A DNA stretch of 62,003 nucleotides from the IMG/VR virus record IMGVR_UViG_3300031707_000016, positions 1-62,003 of that record. The stretch is one strand, 5' to 3'. How positions within the stretch are numbered: position 1 is the first letter of the stretch; the number at the start of each line of letters is the position of its first letter. The translations under genes were made by a program, and so were the position numbers. The notes under the pieces were generated by a model that saw only the letters and a program-made list of their open reading frames with translations, was not told the origin of the DNA and made no database searches. Below, in pieces: positions 3,351 to 61,576 of this stretch. Source of the stretch: a virus.

Positions 3351-5000
3351 TTACCCCAGAAGCCAGCGAATATCTTCGGTTCCCTGATTACCCCTACCTT
3401 GGCGGCCCGTCTGCATCTCCCACGATTTTTTCCCAGCGATGGCAGCATTTTGCTTGTAAACGGGACTTGTGTCAACAGGACGTGTCATATGCATCTGTCC
3501 AAGTGAAGCCCGGGTTAGGTCCATTCCTTCTTGGCGAAGGCGTAGAGCGGTGTCTCTAACCCATAGTCCGATTCCCAGCGCCATAACCAAGTCATCGTTG
3601 TAAGAATCCATTGCCTGCGCCTTTCCATTCTTCCAAATGAAAGTGTCCAATTCTGCTAGTGTTCTCTTGGAATAAATGTCAACTGCCTGACTTCGGAAAT
3701 ACATCTCTATGTTGTTGATAACCAGTGGACGTGTTTTTATATTCGTGCTGAATCCCGGAACCAATTTCTTTTCTTCCGAGTCATAGCGATTTGTCAGTTG
3801 ACGCTGAACGTCCACATATTTCAAGTCGGTGGAACTATAAAAAGTGTTTTTATACTCACGATCAATGATGGCTTGAAGAGTTGCCCAACCTACGTTTTCA
3901 CGCTCAACAATCAAGAGAGCATTATTATATTCGGTGGCGAGTGCTACGAGGAAATTTCCATAGTCCTTGGTTCCAAGGTTTCCCTTATATTCGGCGCATT
4001 GAATTGGCGTCTCGCCTGTAATATCAATCACATGAGCAGCGGAGAAGTCTGCGCCATCACCACGGGCAACGTCGGCGCATACAAGGTATGAGTGGGAGTA
4101 GTCTGGATAGTGCCAAATCCACAGTCCCCTATCTGCTCCACGGATGTCCACCGGGTCTTTCTGGCGGTTCTTCTTGTAGAACTCTACAATGGCAAGATCC
4201 ACCACGTTGTCACCGGAGGCAAGGAAGTTACAATCAAATTCTTGTGCTGCTTTCTTGGGATTGCCTTGCTTCTCTCCCTCAACCCGTCTCCACTCTTCAT
4301 TACGCTCGGGGTGCAACTGCCACGGGAGGGTAATCGGATGGAATCCGTTTTTACCAACCTTCCCGTCGTTGTTTTCTTCCGCCCCTTGCCACATTTGATG
4401 AAACCAGTTACCAACACCACGAGGAGTTGAGAGGATGATTGCGTTACCACCAGTTGACAACGTAGGAGAAGCGGAAGTCCACAATTCAGATGCCTCATCA
4501 ATAAGGGCAGCTTCGTCAATAATAAGAAGGGATAGTGCTTGACCTACACCTGATTTCTTCGTCGTAGATGCCGCCTTGATTTGAGACCCATTTGAGAACT
4601 TCAAAGATAAGCGGTTATCTTCAATGCATTGCACTTTGAGCCATGTGGGAAGTTCCTGTTGGGCGTCTCTAACCTTGGTAACAACGTCTTTGGCATCATC
4701 TTGTCTCAACGAGATTAGAAGAATGTTCTTATCCTTGTTGAATGTCATCAACCACAGCGAATATGCAGCGACCAGTGTTGATATGCCCATCTGACGAGAC
4801 TTGAGGATGATGTTGAATCGAAAATCGTGAAATGAGGTTAGAGTCTCTTCTTGAAACTTGTAAAGGTCAAACAGCACCATTCCACGAATTGGATGTTTAA
4901 TCTTGACATAGTGCTTCATGAAATATACCGGAGAGGCAGCACACTTGGCGAACTCTTGGCGGATTATTTCTTGATATGAAATCTGCGGTTTATCAGACAT
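3351..5000 (-). CDS. 17: terminase large subunit (gp17-like)
   Basis: A 549-aa packaging motor, an ATPase plus headful nuclease. Counting from MSDKPQ, the Walker A-like SRQMGIST is at 68-75, Walker B LLIIDEA at 159-165 and the coupling motif ILSTPRG near 189. The RNase H-like nuclease acidic residues are D310 (VCADVARGDG), E366 (LIVERENVG) and D469/D470 (SYNDDLVMALG). I chose the MSDKPQ start because it gives an 8-nt overlap with the upstream gene; an in-frame start 27 nt earlier (MLASSNW) is possible. Length and motif order match T4-type TerL. Confidence 0.95.
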   Translation of the reverse strand: MSDKPQISYQEIIRQEFAKCAASPVYFMKHYVKIKHPIRGMVLFDLYKFQEETLTSFHDFRFNIILKSRQMGISTLVAAYSLWLMTFNKDKNILLISLRQDDAKDVVTKVRDAQQELPTWLKVQCIEDNRLSLKFSNGSQIKAASTTKKSGVGQALSLLIIDEAALIDEASELWTSASPTLSTGGNAIILSTPRGVGNWFHQMWQGAEENNDGKVGKNGFHPITLPWQLHPERNEEWRRVEGEKQGNPKKAAQEFDCNFLASGDNVVDLAIVEFYKKNRQKDPVDIRGADRGLWIWHYPDYSHSYLVCADVARGDGADFSAAHVIDITGETPIQCAEYKGNLGTKDYGNFLVALATEYNNALLIVERENVGWATLQAIIDREYKNTFYSSTDLKYVDVQRQLTNRYDSEEKKLVPGFSTNIKTRPLVINNIEMYFRSQAVDIYSKRTLAELDTFIWKNGKAQAMDSYNDDLVMALGIGLWVRDTALRLRQEGMDLTRASLGQMHMTRPVDTSPVYKQNAAIAGKKSWEMQTGRQGRGNQGTEDIRWLLG

Positions 5001-13163: not shown

Positions 13164-13652
13164 TTATTCTGTCTTAGGACGACTCAACGAGTCTTTAATG
13201 TCTTGGGTATATGCCTTTTTTTGAACTGCTTGAACCGCTATTGATTCGGCGGTTACTTCTTTCTGTGGAATGAGGAGTTCTGAAATGCGATTCGTCGGCG
13301 GCACTGCCAGTGGAGTTAAAAGTGGAGGAGTAGTAAGTGCCAATTGATTTGAACGACTTTCTCTCCAACGAGCTTGTGCAGCACTCATTGATTGTGCAAC
13401 CGCCGTGTTGACTATGTTGGATTGATTGTAGATAACGATGGATAACTGATTTGAAAGACTTTCTAATTGAACTTCATACCCCGCCAATTTGCCGGACAGA
13501 GAATCGATCAAATGGGTCATGTCTCGGCGAGTGCCCTGAACCTTGTCGTCAACCGATGTCGCACCTTTCCATACAATGGTGGAAGCTCCTAAAAATACCG
13601 CAACTACCAATGCGCTAATTGCATTGGTGACTATTTTGTTCCATTCAATCAC
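13164..13652 (-). CDS. membrane-anchored coiled-coil protein (possible lysis accessory)
   Basis: I place the start at the GTG at 13652, whose GTGA overlaps the upstream stop, giving 162 aa beginning (V/M)IEWNKIVTNAISALVV. One hydrophobic segment covers about residues 8-27, followed by a charged segment, a coiled-coil stretch and a Pro/Thr-rich linker. This topology (N-terminal anchor, periplasmic helix) would fit an Rz-like spanin or holin accessory, but no diagnostic motif is present. The longer ATG reading frame starting at 13736 runs through the upstream gene and is less likely. Confidence 0.5.
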   Translation of the reverse strand: MIEWNKIVTNAISALVVAVFLGASTIVWKGATSVDDKVQGTRRDMTHLIDSLSGKLAGYEVQLESLSNQLSIVIYNQSNIVNTAVAQSMSAAQARWRESRSNQLALTTPPLLTPLAVPPTNRISELLIPQKEVTAESIAVQAVQKKAYTQDIKDSLSRPKTE

Positions 13653-13855
13653 TTGTAGATCTCCATGTATTTTGGGTCCGTGTGCATACAATCGTCGCAC
13701 ACATATTCTTCGGTGTCTCGGGCAAATTCTTTCCAACTTCCCTCGGCAACCAGATAATAACCACCAGTGACAATTGCTCCCGTCGTTTTACACTTGTCAA
13801 TGATTCCCTCCACAGATTTCCCGCAGCGGTCACACGTTATCGTGATGTTCTTCAT
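13649..13855 (-). CDS. small zinc-finger protein
   Basis: A 68-aa protein with CDRC near residue 8 and CDDC near residue 53, a probable single treble-clef or ribbon. The start is an ATG preceded 6 nt upstream by an ATATTTAT box; no Shine-Dalgarno sequence is visible. The stop overlaps the next gene's GTG start by 4 nt. Specific function unknown; small Zn-binding phage proteins often act on host or phage regulators. Confidence 0.65.
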   Translation of the reverse strand: MKNITITCDRCGKSVEGIIDKCKTTGAIVTGGYYLVAEGSWKEFARDTEEYVCDDCMHTDPKYMEIYK

Positions 13856-28286: not shown

Positions 28287-31200
28287 TTATAGTGTGACTC
28301 CCGGGCAACTTGCAGTCCAGTTCCATCCCGTTCCCGTCAATGGCGACCACGTTTGAACAATTGCCGTGGAAGAACTACCCGTCTTGAGGAACGTTGCCGT
28401 ACCATGACCGGGGGTTATAATGGTTTCGGATGGCAATCCTCTCGACAGAAGTGCGGTATTCAATGCTGCCTGATACGATGATGCGCCACGGTATCCAGTG
28501 TTAATCACGGTGTTACCCTCATAAATAACGATGTATTTGTCAGGAACATTGTAAGAATTGAATTTCAACTGAATAGAACCCGTTGCAGATCCAAGAGTGA
28601 TGGTGTATTGAGTTGGGAATCCACCGGGAGCGACTCCGCTGCGTGAGCTTCCAGAACTAAAACATGAAACCGCAGGTATTGCATTGACGGTGATATACCC
28701 CACTTGAGTATCTACATCAAACAATTCACCACGGAAGGCAGTAAGCGTAACCGTGTAAACGCCGGGTATGTTATAAACATAGGTAGGAGCAACTTCTACG
28801 CTACCAGTTCCATTTCCAAAGTCCCACGAATATCCATCGGCATCCACACTTAGGTTGGAGAAGTTTACAGTCAATGGGTAATTTCCAGACGTAACATCCG
28901 CAATGAAGTTTGCTATTGGAACCACTGTGACCGGAGCAAGGATGATGTTTGGATCGGCGACGATTCCACCAGCAAAGTGCCCAAGTTGATATGGGTCCAT
29001 CATATCCCCGATATACGTTCCACCCATCAAATAGTTGACGGGGTACATTCTGTTTGGCAAATTGAGATATGACAAATTCACATCAATAATTCTATTTTCG
29101 GGCATAGAATTGGTGTTGAAATTTGATACGGAGTTCGTATTAAAGTTGAAGTCCGCATAGAGAAGCGACTCTGTAAGGCGACACAACTTGGTGTTTGGGT
29201 CACGGAAATAATGTGATGCAGTCGCTTCACCATACCACACCGAACCACTGTTCATTTCGCTTCCGATTGGTTTAATTGGATACTTCGGACGCTCCAAAAT
29301 GGAGGGTTCTATCAACACTCCAACAAGTGCATTCGCACGGGCGGGCACAACGTTCCTGATTGCTTCAAATATGGAACGGTTGAAGTATAGCTTGTAGAGT
29401 GTGATTAACTCATTGAACAAAGTTCTGCTTCCGCTGCCTTCATTAAGTGATGAGGCGTATTCTTTGCGGAAAAGATTGAGCGATTGATAACTCTGTGAAT
29501 ACTGATTGAATGGCGCACCGATTGCATCCATGAAATCGAAATTTCCAAAGTATCTTACCGTATCTTTGTTACGGAAATCCTGTGGGTCAACGAAGAATCC
29601 TACTTGGTTGGAATCTGGTGCCGTGTTGTTGCGAGGAACATACGTAGAACGCTCCTTGTTGTCAAATCGGGCAGCAATAGATTGGGATGTATGCCTTACC
29701 TTTTCATTTCTGAATTTGTTTGGACCATATTTGGACACTCCCCAAGTGCTTGGATAATCAATTACCTTGAATTGCCACGGGTATGTAGATTGTGACACGT
29801 ATCGGCAGGAGGCGGTATCATAAACCAACTTTTGCGAACCACTCCACGCCGCATAATTGGCCATCAAATCCATGTTGTTGATTTGTGTTGGCGTTGGCGT
29901 CAGACAATCAAATTGCTTGTTTATCGAGTTTGTTGCATAGTATGGGTTTGCATTTCTCCACTGTCCTACCCATACGTTATATGGTCCAGACAACCCTATG
30001 AAGTTGTTTGGTACGGCATCACCCGGGGCAATTTGACGCATGTCAAATGGATAGTCCGTATGCATACGGAACAATAGAGATTGGTGAGCGGGACGTGACC
30101 CGCTAAAACTGTAGGCGTTTATGCTGTTGGCGTAATCTTCAAAGTTACTATCGGTAATGGCATCATACCATACCTGAAGTTTGTCCATTGCTCCGGTAAA
30201 TCCTTGTCCGTTTCGGTCAGCAAACCAACCACCGAGCATAAGGTAAGACCCAGATGAATCAACCGAGAATCTATGATTGATTGCATAATCATACGAGACT
30301 TTACTTGAAGTAAGTCTTAGTGTCTGGTTTCCAAACTCATTCTTCTGAACATACAAATCAAATATACTTGGAATAGCATCTGTGTTTGTATTGTATTCAA
30401 ATCCCGTAGGAACCAGATTACGACGAAGCATCAAGCTATAGATGCTTCCGTCAAAGAGCGGGAATGTTGAGCTGGTAATTTTGAACTGAGGATTGTTATC
30501 ATATCCAATTCGGAAGTACACTCGTCCGAGATTTGGTCCTGGTTCACGAATAAATCCAACGGTCCAATCTCCCGAACCAGATGGGGAATTTGCAGTGACG
30601 CCTCCCCCAACCACTCCCAACATGTTTTGTTCTCTTCCATAAACATAACTGTCCGCATCGCCGATGCAGAACTTCAGGAGAAACGTGTTACAATTGGTAG
30701 TGAGATTGTTTCTGAAATGGTCGTACTTGGAAGACGTGTCCCACTGATACATGAAGGAACGCTCATACGTGGTGTATGACGCCTTTTCATCTGTATAGTT
30801 GACTCCACCGTATTCACGAATAGTCAACAGCGAAGACGGAACGCCATAACAAGCAAGAATGACACGGACAGACTCTTCGGTTCCCTTAGTCTTGAAAATG
30901 CGTGGCAAGTTGATGAGAATACGATTTCTCACTTCCTTGAGACGGTCTTCCGCAGACATACCATTCAACCCCTCCTGTTGTTCAGAAGTCAAGTAGTTGT
31001 TCAGCATGTTCGCCTGTTCCAACGAATCATCCAGCGTCCAACCAAAAGTCTCAAGCATGTATTCTACAATGCGACGAGTAAATGCTTCTGTTGCCCCCGA
31101 ACCGACGTGCCTTTCCGAAGGCATGTTAGCGATGTAGATGTAGATTTCATCAAAGAAGTGACCAATCATCGAAAGGAAAATGATGTAGTCATCGTTTAAG

Positions 31201-51440: not shown

Positions 51441-51445
51441 TAAAG

Positions 51446-51534
51446 TGGCGGATAGCTGAGTATTCGAAACCCATCCCGGTTAAGGGACAATCTGTTTTCG
51501 AGGCAGTTCCAGTACCCTGACTGGTTAACTATCC
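51446..51534 (-). tRNA. tRNA-Ser(CGA)
   Basis: A class II cloverleaf: acceptor GGATAGT/GCTATCC, G discriminator, CCA encoded, TTCGAAT T-loop and a long variable arm (TCCC/GGGA). Anticodon loop CTCGAAA is read with a C-A mismatch next to the loop. The 5' end overlaps the stop codon of the upstream small gene by 6 nt. Confidence 0.75.
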
Positions 51535-51705
51535 AATTCTGCGGAAAAACGATTCTTGTTCACTCCTACGACGAGCAAGTTCATATGCTTCAAGTTGTGG
51601 AGTGACAGCGGCAATATACCGCTCACGAAACTCTTGATATTCCTTTTCCGTTTTGAACAACGGTTCCCATTTTACCCCCGGACATAACTCAAGTGCTTCA
51701 AACAT
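51529..51705 (-). CDS. hypothetical protein, 58 aa, translated from tRNA-adjacent start
   Basis: Starts MFEALELCPGVKWEPLF, 4 nt after the CCA of tRNA-Ser(GGA); a longer frame runs into the tRNA and is rejected. The C-terminal helix is charged (ELARRRSEQESFFRRIG). The stop TAG lies inside the tRNA-Ser(CGA) acceptor. Sandwiched between two tRNAs, it looks like a short co-transcribed ORF; no family recognised. Confidence 0.55.
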   Translation of the reverse strand: MFEALELCPGVKWEPLFKTEKEYQEFRERYIAAVTPQLEAYELARRRSEQESFFRRIG

Positions 51706-51709
51706 AAAT

Positions 51710-51797
51710 TGGCGGAAGACTGAGATCCCGCCTCTCACTCCCGTAAAGGAGCCAACCGATTTCCAATCGGTGCCAAGTCTCACTCGGTTAATCTTCC
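51710..51797 (-). tRNA. tRNA-Ser(GGA)
   Basis: Class II: acceptor GGAAGAT..ATCTTCC type, CCA encoded, anticodon loop TTGGAAA, long variable arm CTCC/GGAG, T-loop of the GGCGGGATCTCAG type (less canonical). Shares arms with the other two serine tRNAs GCT and TGA. Confidence 0.85.
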
Positions 51798-51960
51798 AAA
51801 TGACGAATCGTTGGATTCACGTCCAACTCATACTCCTCTTTAGGCTGGAGATAACCTATTATGGTCTTCGGGTGAACTTAACACCTTACTTATTGTCCAT
51901 AATTCCGATGCTAGTGTGAAACACGACATCGCTTAAATTGATTCGTCAAAGAACTAAAAT
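51798..51960. other. spacer between tRNA-Gln and tRNA-Ser
   Basis: 163 bp without a convincing gene. A 29-codon ATG frame (MSCFTLASELWTISK) exists but has no supporting signal. I see no promoter. Confidence 0.4.
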
Positions 51961-52387: not shown

Positions 52388-52460
52388 TGGTTGCGGTCGC
52401 CAGAATTGAACTGGTCCCTGACCTTATGAGAGTCATGTGCAGCCATCACACTTCCCCGCA
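52388..52460 (-). tRNA. tRNA with CAT anticodon (Met, or Ile after lysidine modification)
   Basis: 73 nt: acceptor TGCGGGG/GACCGCA with two mismatches on the inner side, A discriminator, CCA, anticodon loop CTCATAA, T-loop TTCAATT, variable loop of 3 nt. U1-A72 argues against initiator identity. Mismatches make it divergent. Confidence 0.75.
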
Positions 52461-57647: not shown

Positions 57648-57651
57648 AAAT

Positions 57652-57739
57652 TGGCGGAAGGCAGAGATCCCGCCTCTCACCCCCTTTCAGGGGCCATCGG
57701 TTTAGCAAACCGTGACAAGCCTCGCCTGCTTTACCTTCC
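57652..57739 (-). tRNA. tRNA-Ser(GCT)
   Basis: Class II: acceptor GGAAGGT-type with CCTTCC, CCA encoded, anticodon loop TTGCTAA, long variable arm CCCC/GGGG. Decodes AGY serine codons. Confidence 0.85.
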
Positions 57740-57829
57740 GTAGGTCAAGTATTTTCCTTGGAAAACCTTTGTAAAAAGTCACATTGGAATTTCGCCACAT
57801 TTTCCTGCCTGTGGATTTAACCACTCAGC
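57740..57829. other. short spacer with a TTTTCC/GGAAAA hairpin
   Basis: 90 bp downstream of the 93-aa gene stop and upstream of tRNA-Ser(GCT). A minor hairpin only; nothing else seen. Confidence 0.4.
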
Positions 57830-58116: not shown

Positions 58117-58190
58117 TGGTACGGAGTAGAGGTTCTGCCCCTCTGATCTCTCGGTGTAAGCGAGATTTGATACTATTTCAACAACTCCGC
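58117..58190 (-). tRNA. tRNA-Val(TAC) with non-canonical D- and T-loops
   Basis: A full cloverleaf: acceptor GCGGAGT/ACTCCGT, discriminator A, CCA, anticodon loop CTTACAC, 5-bp T stem AGAGG/CCTCT. The T-loop is GGCAGAA rather than TTCGAAT-like, and the D-loop AATAGTA lacks GG, so the usual D-T loop contacts cannot form. Ends 5 nt before tRNA-Ser(TGA). Confidence 0.72.
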
Positions 58191-58195
58191 ATAAA

Positions 58196-58286
58196 TGGCG
58201 GAAGGCTGAGGTCACGCTCCCCACACCCGTCTTAGGGGTGCATACGCATTTCAAGTGCGTTCCGAGTCTCACCCGGTTAACCTTCC
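58196..58286 (-). tRNA. tRNA-Ser(TGA)
   Basis: Class II: acceptor GGAAGG/CCTTCC, G discriminator, CCA encoded, anticodon loop CTTGAAA, long variable arm CACCCC/GGGGTG-like. Decodes UCA. Confidence 0.88.
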
Positions 58287-58294
58287 ATCTGTCA

Positions 58295-58302
58295 ATAAAT
58301 AT
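58295..58302 (-). promoter_or_regulatory. ATATTTAT box before tRNA-Ser(TGA)
   Basis: Box inside CTGTCATATTTATTGACAG palindrome-like sequence, 9 nt before the tRNA 5' end. Confidence 0.4.
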
Positions 58303-58409: not shown

Positions 58410-58731
58410 ATGAATTGTCAATAGTATGCTATTACGCCAAAGGGACGGGTTCTGCCATTGCAGTAATCAGCTGAATTCTGCTGACCAATCATGGTTCCAG
58501 ACAACTTGCCAATGTCAATTCACTGGTTCTTACAGTCACGATGTAATGTTTGCCTCCGAGCAACTCAGTTGAATACGTCAACCTTTCACGCCGCTATCAA
58601 ACTTTCACGGCGATATGATGTCACATGGAGACATGTTCCCACTTATTATAGGCACCAGACTTTTCAGTTGAAAAGTCTGATGAACTTTTCAGTTTGGCTG
58701 CCTCTAAGCCCACCTTCTACTGACAAATTGT
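58410..58731. other. 322-bp hairpin-rich spacer, no gene seen
   Basis: Closing TTGTCA/TGACAA near its ends; inner hairpins include CAGC/GCTG (58469), CGCCG/CGGCG (58592-58617), ATGTC/GACAT (58618-58636) and CAGACTTTTC/GAAAAGTCTG (58657-58680). A TATAAT lies near 58646-58651 but has no good -35. May contain an RNA; unproven. Confidence 0.45.
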
Positions 58732-60736: not shown

Positions 60737-60821
60737 TGGTAGCACCGAACGGATTCGAACCGATAAAGGATGACAAGTTCTAAGCTTGTTGCTTGTGCCA
60801 GCTTCGCTTATCCACGGTGCC
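60737..60821 (-). tRNA. tRNA-Leu(TAG), atypical arms
   Basis: Acceptor GGCACCG/CGGTGCT (one G-U), CCA, T-loop TTCGAAT, anticodon loop CTTAGAA. D-arm region is long, variable region short and T-stem has a mismatch compared with usual leucine tRNAs, so its folding is less certain. Confidence 0.7.
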
Positions 60822-60912: not shown

Positions 60913-60915
60913 ATA

Positions 60916-61061
60916 GACAGTAAGCGGTTTCCTACTTGTATTTCGTACTCCCTCGTCTATTGCTCCCATTTGTGGATGGTGTCATTTTCGTTCCACAGTG
61001 GTTACATACAACCGAACAAGCAAGACACGCCCCTTCGGTTTATTGACTTATCCATACTGTC
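60916..61061 (-). ncRNA. candidate structured RNA spacer
   Basis: GACAGTA/TACTGTC (7 bp) close a 146-nt spacer whose end is 4 nt from tRNA-Leu(CAA). Inner minus-strand arms: AACCGAA/TTCGGTT, CCAT/ATGG, GTA/TAC. No T-loop or CCA. Same arrangement as the 60453 spacer. Confidence 0.4.
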
Positions 61062-61070
61062 AAATTGTTA

Positions 61071-61235
61071 TGGGCTGAGTGCGTTTTCACGCAAGCCTTC
61101 ATGAAGGCGTCAACCTACCTAAGTCTTAAGCCTCGTAGGAGCGTCAAATCCATGTGTCCCTGAACGCTGTCTCACTATCGTAAAATGCTTCGATGGCACA
61201 TATTGTCGTGAGACTTTTTCCGACTTCTCAGCCCA
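61071..61235 (-). ncRNA. candidate small RNA, multi-hairpin, own sigma70 promoter
   Basis: A 9-bp closing helix (TGGGCTGAG/CTCAGCCCA) surrounds five internal hairpins: TGCGT/ACGCA (61080-61093), GCCTT/AAGGC (61095-61108), CCTAC/GTAGG (61114-61139), GCGT/ACGC (61141-61167) and GTCTCAC/GTGAGAC (61169-61214) with an inner ATCG/CGAT. The 5' end (minus strand, about 61235) lies 8 nt after a consensus -10, where transcription would start. No match to known RNA classes was recognised. Confidence 0.6.
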
Positions 61236-61242
61236 CGGGTGG

Positions 61243-61270
61243 ATTATACCACACATCAGGTGGATGTCAA
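61243..61270 (-). promoter_or_regulatory. consensus sigma70 promoter for the structured RNA
   Basis: Perfect TTGACA and perfect TATAAT with a 16-bp spacer. This is the strongest-looking promoter in the window. Predicted start about 61236-61237, at the base of the terminal helix. Confidence 0.8.
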
Positions 61271-61273
61271 CCT

Positions 61274-61281
61274 ATAAATAC
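61274..61281 (-). promoter_or_regulatory. GTATTTAT, near-match to ATATTTAT box
   Basis: One mismatch to the box set, 3 bp upstream of the consensus -35; overlapping early and late signals are possible. Confidence 0.3.
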
Positions 61282-61298
61282 TGTGCCAAATTTGAAAG

Positions 61299-61374
<76 letters not shown>

Positions 61375-61576
61375 AAAATACCGCACTACTCTGGATGGGG
61401 AGAGCGTGTGCGGGAGTATTTTCTCCTTACCGGAGGTAATATATTACCCATCTGTTATCTCTCTATGGAGTGGAGCCTTGAGAGCGTGTCAAACTTTATC
61501 CACCATATCAACATGATTCACATGCTTTGTTGTCAGCCCCACAGTGTATAGACAACCTTCACCCGTGGGGAATTCA
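61375..61576. other. spacer with hairpins downstream of 74-aa gene
   Basis: Contains CCGCAC/GTGCGG (61381-61414) and CCCCAC/GTGGGG (61539-61572), the latter 4 nt past the stop of the 74-aa gene and terminator-like but without a T-run. The string GAGAGCGTGT occurs twice, near 61399 and 61470. No gene seen. Confidence 0.4.

Follow-up and report, generated by a model that had tools for sequence, protein, structure and literature searches.

A conserved structured RNA in the tRNA cluster of a T4-like phage, and a sibling RNA that appears to copy the ribosomal GTPase-associated centre

Structured RNAs among phage tRNA genes

Phages and other mobile elements carry the large structured RNAs GOLLD and ROOL, frequently close to tRNAs, and tRNA-like T-arm/acceptor domains are carried by the bacterial YrlA/Y RNAs and by tmRNA. 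The closest known kind to the RNA described here, by place and size, is the pair of small RNAs likewise encoded among the tRNA genes of phage T4, the species 1 RNA (rnaC, 139 nt) and the species 2 RNA (rnaD, 119 nt), reported as late RNAs (PMC9697503). Papers of 2010 and 2022 still gave the roles of this T4 pair as unknown (PMC3014915, PMC9697503), and structures have been described for GOLLD and ROOL (PMC12286853).

The window, i.e. the whole stretch of 62,003 nucleotides analysed here (IMGVR_UViG_3300031707_000016), is a fragment of an uncultured T4-like myophage with T4-type terminase and portal genes. Its tRNA cluster encodes RNA1, a 165-nt structured RNA (61071–61235, minus strand). Near its 3' end rnaC carries a T-arm-like hairpin; a comparable one lies next to the terminal stem in two of the three known RNA1 copies, and a GAAA hairpin takes its place in the window copy. 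The T4 RNA lacks the GACAATATGTGCCA core and is not homologous by sequence, and a search of the T4 genome with the RNA1 model R1 gave no match at the rnaC/rnaD positions (70908–71171). Compared to GOLLD and ROOL, RNA1 is about a quarter of the size. The Rfam search of 60913–61298 (386 nt) returned no match even at E ≤ 10, whether to GOLLD, ROOL, YrlA, 6S, tmRNA, RNase P or SRP, and Rfam in gathering mode likewise gave nothing for RNA1; at E ≤ 1 over the whole tRNA cluster, nothing fell on RNA1. ARAGORN reported no tmRNA at RNA1 and no tag ORF was recognised there, in agreement with an earlier note, made from the sequence alone, that had seen no tmRNA, RNase P or SRP signature. RNA1 represents a kind absent from the RNA databases. 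Searches of an open-access collection that omits most subscription papers gave no account either of these RNAs or of any phage RNA resembling the GTPase-associated centre (GAC), so that their novelty is provisional.

Promoter, fold and anatomy of RNA1

RNA1 is preceded by a sigma-70-type promoter, TTGACA-16-TATAAT with a TG before the -10 box (61243–61270, minus strand), which is the sole match to TTGACA-N15..18-TATAAT in the 62 kb of the window, where 0.06 would be expected. The predicted start, 6–8 nt past the -10 box (61237–61235), coincides with the start of the closing helix P1 (TGGGCTGAG/CTCAGCCCA), whose 9 bp surround five hairpins; both the perfect promoter and the enclosed hairpins had been claimed in the earlier note and are reproduced here. 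The minimum free energy of -59.1 kcal/mol (z -4.22) lies well below the average of the shuffled sequences (-42.2), with 0 of 200 shuffles as good; the folding control proposed in that note came out in favour of a genuine structure. The ORFs overlapping RNA1 are short (≤47 aa), and its homologs show indels of lengths not divisible by three, with no ORF conserved, which bears out the earlier view that no convincing ORF is present.

The invariant core (61168–61226, minus strand) comprises AAGTCGGAAAA, helix P2 and the loop GACAATATGTGCCA..AGCATTT.ACGATA. Within this region, GTCGG has two potential partners: YGAC, with which the P2 loop opens, would give a possible H-type pseudoknot (GTCG/CGAC), and TTGAC after P5 is the alternative; the pseudoknot lies beyond a covariation test because its strands hardly vary. 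The 3' domain (61071–61097, minus strand) consists of the hairpin P7, separated by 0–1 nt from the 3' strand of P1 and stacked on it in the predicted structure. The P7 loop reads TTCAACT, T-arm-like, in the two homologous copies, L004 and L034, and GAAA in the window copy. By sequence and pairing, the P1/P7 arrangement resembles the acceptor/T-arm stack of a tRNA, with neither an anticodon arm nor an encoded 3'-terminal CCA. A terminator-like site was not detected immediately beyond RNA1.

Homologs and compensatory changes

RNA1 homologs occur in two other contigs, both of uncultured phages: IMGVR_UViG_3300011266_000048 (L034:1079–1247; the same record as L108) and IMGVR_UViG_3300019487_000038 (L004:50–224; the same record as L110), L035 being the same homolog as L004. 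A covariance-model search from related phages, as the earlier note had proposed, scored the three copies at 94.2, 92.0 and 89.7 bits (92–94 bits for the two homologs), far above the next best match at 17.5 bits, and gave a single strong match within the window; its model covered the 5' half of RNA1 and was derived from the same three sequences. R1 was clear only in the two known homologs among 44 whole related or reference records and had no significant match in L100–L103; when viral and genome contigs were scanned by pattern, RNA1 was recognisable only in L034 and L004/L035, and BLAST against INPHARED, with two versions of RNA1 and with RNA2, RNA5 and RNA6 as queries, gave nothing or chance pieces. 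Other candidate copies (L036–L039, L067 and the genome matches L092–L099) were set aside as chance by score or context, and a hammerhead suggested by CUGAUGA in L034 is not conserved.

Across the three copies, on which the conservation rests, the core AAGTCGGAAAA...GACAATATGTGCCA...AGCATTT.ACGATA is invariant and the intervening helices diverge. TTGACA precedes P1 at a nearly equal distance in all three phages, with a TAnnnT -10 box 5–7 nt before the helix in L034 and L004. Helices P1, P2, P4, P5 and P7 are paired in every copy, and a listing made by hand from the three sequences gives 18 helix columns with two-sided changes, including 5 in P6, a helix compared in two phages only. P2 provides strong evidence of a helix at the level of sequence: it reads GTCTCAC/GTGAGAC in the window, GGTCCAT/ATGGGCC in L034 and GCATCC/GGATGC in L004, and its segments, bounded by conserved blocks, form 7, 7 and 6 bp within each phage vs 3–6 bp when combined across phages. 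Taken singly, P4, P5 and P7 are weak evidence, because random segments of such size often form short helices (probability of a helix of at least 5 bp, 0.13). The folding z-scores of the homologs themselves are modest (-1.9 and -2.2).

RNA1 is a real non-coding RNA gene, its promoter match, homologs, conserved helices and linkage to RNA2 and tRNAs each being backed by evidence. The new structured, tRNA-linked small RNA that the earlier note had postulated is thus upheld by homologs, a conserved promoter, compensatory helix changes and the lack of a known family.

The tRNA cluster and its spacer RNAs

RNA1 lies inside the phage tRNA cluster, between tRNA-Lys(CTT) and RNA2/tRNA-Leu. The earlier note had it heading a tRNA run, an impression that arises because the window ends there: tRNA-Lys(CTT) (61299–61374, minus strand; ARAGORN) is located 64 nt upstream, in the same order relative to RNA1 in L108, where the cluster continues 7.5 kb further upstream. 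Two of the three other related-phage clusters (G025 and G040) end at a contig edge, so the absence of RNA1 there means little; in G027, tRNA-Lys(CTT) and tRNA-Pro(CGG) are present with no RNA1 between them.

RNA1 is one of several structured RNAs that fill tRNA spacers. RNA2 (60916–61061, minus strand), which starts GACAGTATGGATAAGTC and is closed by the terminal helix GACAGTA/TACTGTC, follows RNA1 in all three RNA1-bearing phages, directly so in the window, and lies directly upstream of tRNA-Leu(CAA) in the window and L108 alike. Its homologs in L110 and L108 (9113–9277) reach nhmmer E-values of 5e-44 and 2.5e-35 with a profile built from these same sequences, and its fold energy is weak alone (z -1.8). 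RNA5 (51800–51955, minus strand), conserved and structured, separates tRNA-Gln(CTG) from tRNA-Ser(GGA) in five phages, the window and four relatives (e.g., L105 7116–7317 and L106 14377–14579). RNA6 (61375–61556, minus strand) is non-coding, immediately precedes tRNA-Lys(CTT) and is conserved in a second contig (L118, about 4240–4424), with which it can be aligned over its full length. In addition, edge-to-edge helices of 8–13 bp close about a dozen spacers across six tRNA clusters.

The cluster also displays several features of its own. Four tRNA-Ser genes, read by eye and missed by both ARAGORN and Rfam, lie on the minus strand at 51442–51535 (CGA), 51705–51800 (GGA), 57648–57742 (GCT) and 58190–58295 (TGA), some with a GGCGGGA-type T-loop replacing TTCGAAT; a probable tRNA-Leu(TAG) at 60740–60808 (minus strand; 22.4 bits, under the Rfam cut-off) was likewise missed by ARAGORN. 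A NifU/IscU-like iron–sulphur scaffold gene (60348–59964, minus strand), with relatives at 32 viral-contig loci, lies within the cluster. L108 7345–7440 shows a circularly permuted tRNA-like order, in which GCTCAT joins a leading T-arm and 3' acceptor half to the 5' acceptor half and D-arm behind it, and a tRNA gene at L034 2471–3035 is apparently interrupted by an HNH-endonuclease ORF. The ARAGORN tmRNA call at 52418–52043 (minus strand) is spurious and merely spans two tRNA-Ala genes.

RNA4 and the GTPase-associated centre of 23S rRNA

The spacer between tRNA-Arg(CCT) and tRNA-Gln(TTG) encodes RNA4 (58415–58726, minus strand), closed by the terminal helix TTGTCAGTAG/CTATTGACAA (fold z -3.45). 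Near its 5' end RNA4 contains the H43-like GGCTTAGAGGCAGCC (58696–58710) and near its 3' end the H44-like GCGTAATAGC (58428–58437), the GTPase-associated centre of E. coli 23S rRNA reading GGCTTAGAAGCAGCC (H43) and GCGTAATAGC (H44). The two elements lie in 23S order inside one closing helix, and across 113 loci plus the window, with E. coli excluded, each pattern occurs only in RNA4 of the window phage and of L108. The L108 copy (13410–13790) holds, in addition, the sarcin–ricin-loop sequence CTAGTACGAGAGGA.

Relatives of RNA4 exist in named phages. BLAST with the 3' end of the L108 copy reached sites without annotation in large phages, GAP32, CBB and BF among them, at E 0.1 each, matches that fall in the same place in many phages. 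Conversely, when 23S rRNA was searched against 50,697 phage records, only 23S 1054–1089 matched, in phages of several genera, after exclusion of (i) whole or long bacterial-looking rRNA pieces, (ii) a 40-nt coding match (E 0.3), and (iii) a few ssRNA-phage records. The named-phage relatives reach up to 94% identity over 35 nt (E. coli 23S 1054–1088), and the Rfam LSU model matches them at E 1.2e-4, below its cut-off. The stretch adjoins tRNA genes in pf16, Aeromonas 4_4572 and Milchi; further loci are JN882285 289504–289779, KU873925 ~29562–29594, MK813943 ~75084–75123 and AP018399 ~150549–150583. RNAs of this type thus occur in diverse large phages, within tRNA clusters or between genes, where they are unannotated or covered by predicted ORFs.

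Compared with H42–H44 of 23S rRNA, RNA4 preserves the H43 and H44 loops and the topology but displays an insertion of ~100–300 nt before the H44 hairpin. Because of this long insertion, a gapped alignment of the whole length of RNA4 with 23S does not pick out the GAC. Judged by the presence of both loops in 23S order and by its relatives in named phages, RNA4 is most simply described as a copy of the ribosomal GTPase-associated centre.

RNA1, in contrast, is without any such match. As an rRNA mimic it shows no significant similarity to E. coli 16S or 23S compared with shuffled controls, and as rRNA fragments RNA1, RNA2 and RNA5 are mostly no better than shuffles. RNA2 of L108 scored against 23S with 0 of 100 shuffles as good, yet RNA2 of the other two phages does not support this, and the 13-nt match involved (GGGAAACCGAGTC) can arise from a GAAA-hairpin. 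A resemblance of T4 rnaD to 16S h17 was also rejected, 54 of 1500 dinucleotide shuffles being as good.

Proposed role of RNA1 and alternative explanations

We give an even chance to RNA1 being an RNA gene with its own promoter and a tRNA-like end, acting in trans on the translation or tRNA-processing machinery. Transcription would start at the first bases of the 9-bp terminal helix, which would stack on the T-arm-like P7 to form the tRNA-like end; host tRNA-maturation nucleases could trim this end, and such trimming would account for the missing downstream terminator. The core (GUCGGAAAA, P2 and the large loop, possibly pseudoknotted) would be the working surface, binding in trans a host or phage component, most likely of one of these two machineries. 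We infer the stability, tRNA-like trimming and trans action from the sibling RNAs and from three features of RNA1 itself, namely its closing helix, its T-arm-like hairpin and the lack of a terminator, and both processing and target are to be read as predictions. RNA1 would then belong to a suite of structured spacer RNAs including RNA4, and a putative GAC mimic in the same cluster would offer a precedent for a translation-directed RNA1.

An unlikely though not negligible alternative is that RNA1 is the cis-acting leader of a long, mostly untranslated tRNA transcript, serving antitermination (put-like) or guiding endonucleolytic processing of tRNA precursors. RNA1 indeed starts exactly at the promoter in all three phages, no terminator-like site follows it, and long edge-to-edge helices also close other tRNA spacers, as expected of a general processing device; against this, the invariant core far exceeds the needs of a processing helix, other TTGACA promoters in the cluster are not accompanied by an RNA1 copy, and in L108 an HNH ORF comes directly after RNA1. 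Rather improbable is a decoy role, in which the tRNA-like RNA1 would lure a host defence nuclease, or a tRNA-modifying enzyme, by its likeness to the acceptor/T-arm: the location in a tRNA cluster and, in two phages, the stacking of a T-arm-like hairpin on P1 would fit, and phage tRNAs are reported to counter tRNA-targeting defences (PMC11555353, PMC10264068), but RNA1 lacks an anticodon arm and an encoded CCA, and the window copy has no T-loop. That RNA1 is non-functional, a chance fold beside a chance promoter match, is very improbable; single-sequence z-scores are noisy and other 120-nt stretches of the cluster also fall below -3, but homologs with an invariant core, a conserved promoter position and re-paired helices argue against it.

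The regulator or decoy role raised in the earlier note gains some weight, because the sibling RNA4 appears to copy the GTPase-associated centre and because the terminal domain of RNA1 is tRNA-like in two of the three phages. Returning to the trans-acting reading, a wider version of it, in which the tRNA cluster is an array of RNAs imitating or engaging the translation machinery, with RNA4 a free-standing GAC copy and RNA1 a trans-acting member, is offered only tentatively.

Significance

RNA1 and RNA2 constitute a pair unrelated to that of T4 but similarly placed, in a different phage lineage. RNA4 copies a ribosomal region at which translation factors dock, a likeness suggesting that these phage tRNA-cluster RNAs act on the host protein-making machinery, and its rRNA resemblance names a testable target, namely L11, elongation factors or RelA. 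The GAC-like RNA, mostly unannotated, is found in culturable phages of Pseudomonas, Aeromonas, Xanthomonas, Erwinia, Serratia and Cronobacter and is therefore experimentally accessible. If these RNAs act on the factor-binding apparatus of the ribosome, phages would control or shield translation by means of RNA mimics.
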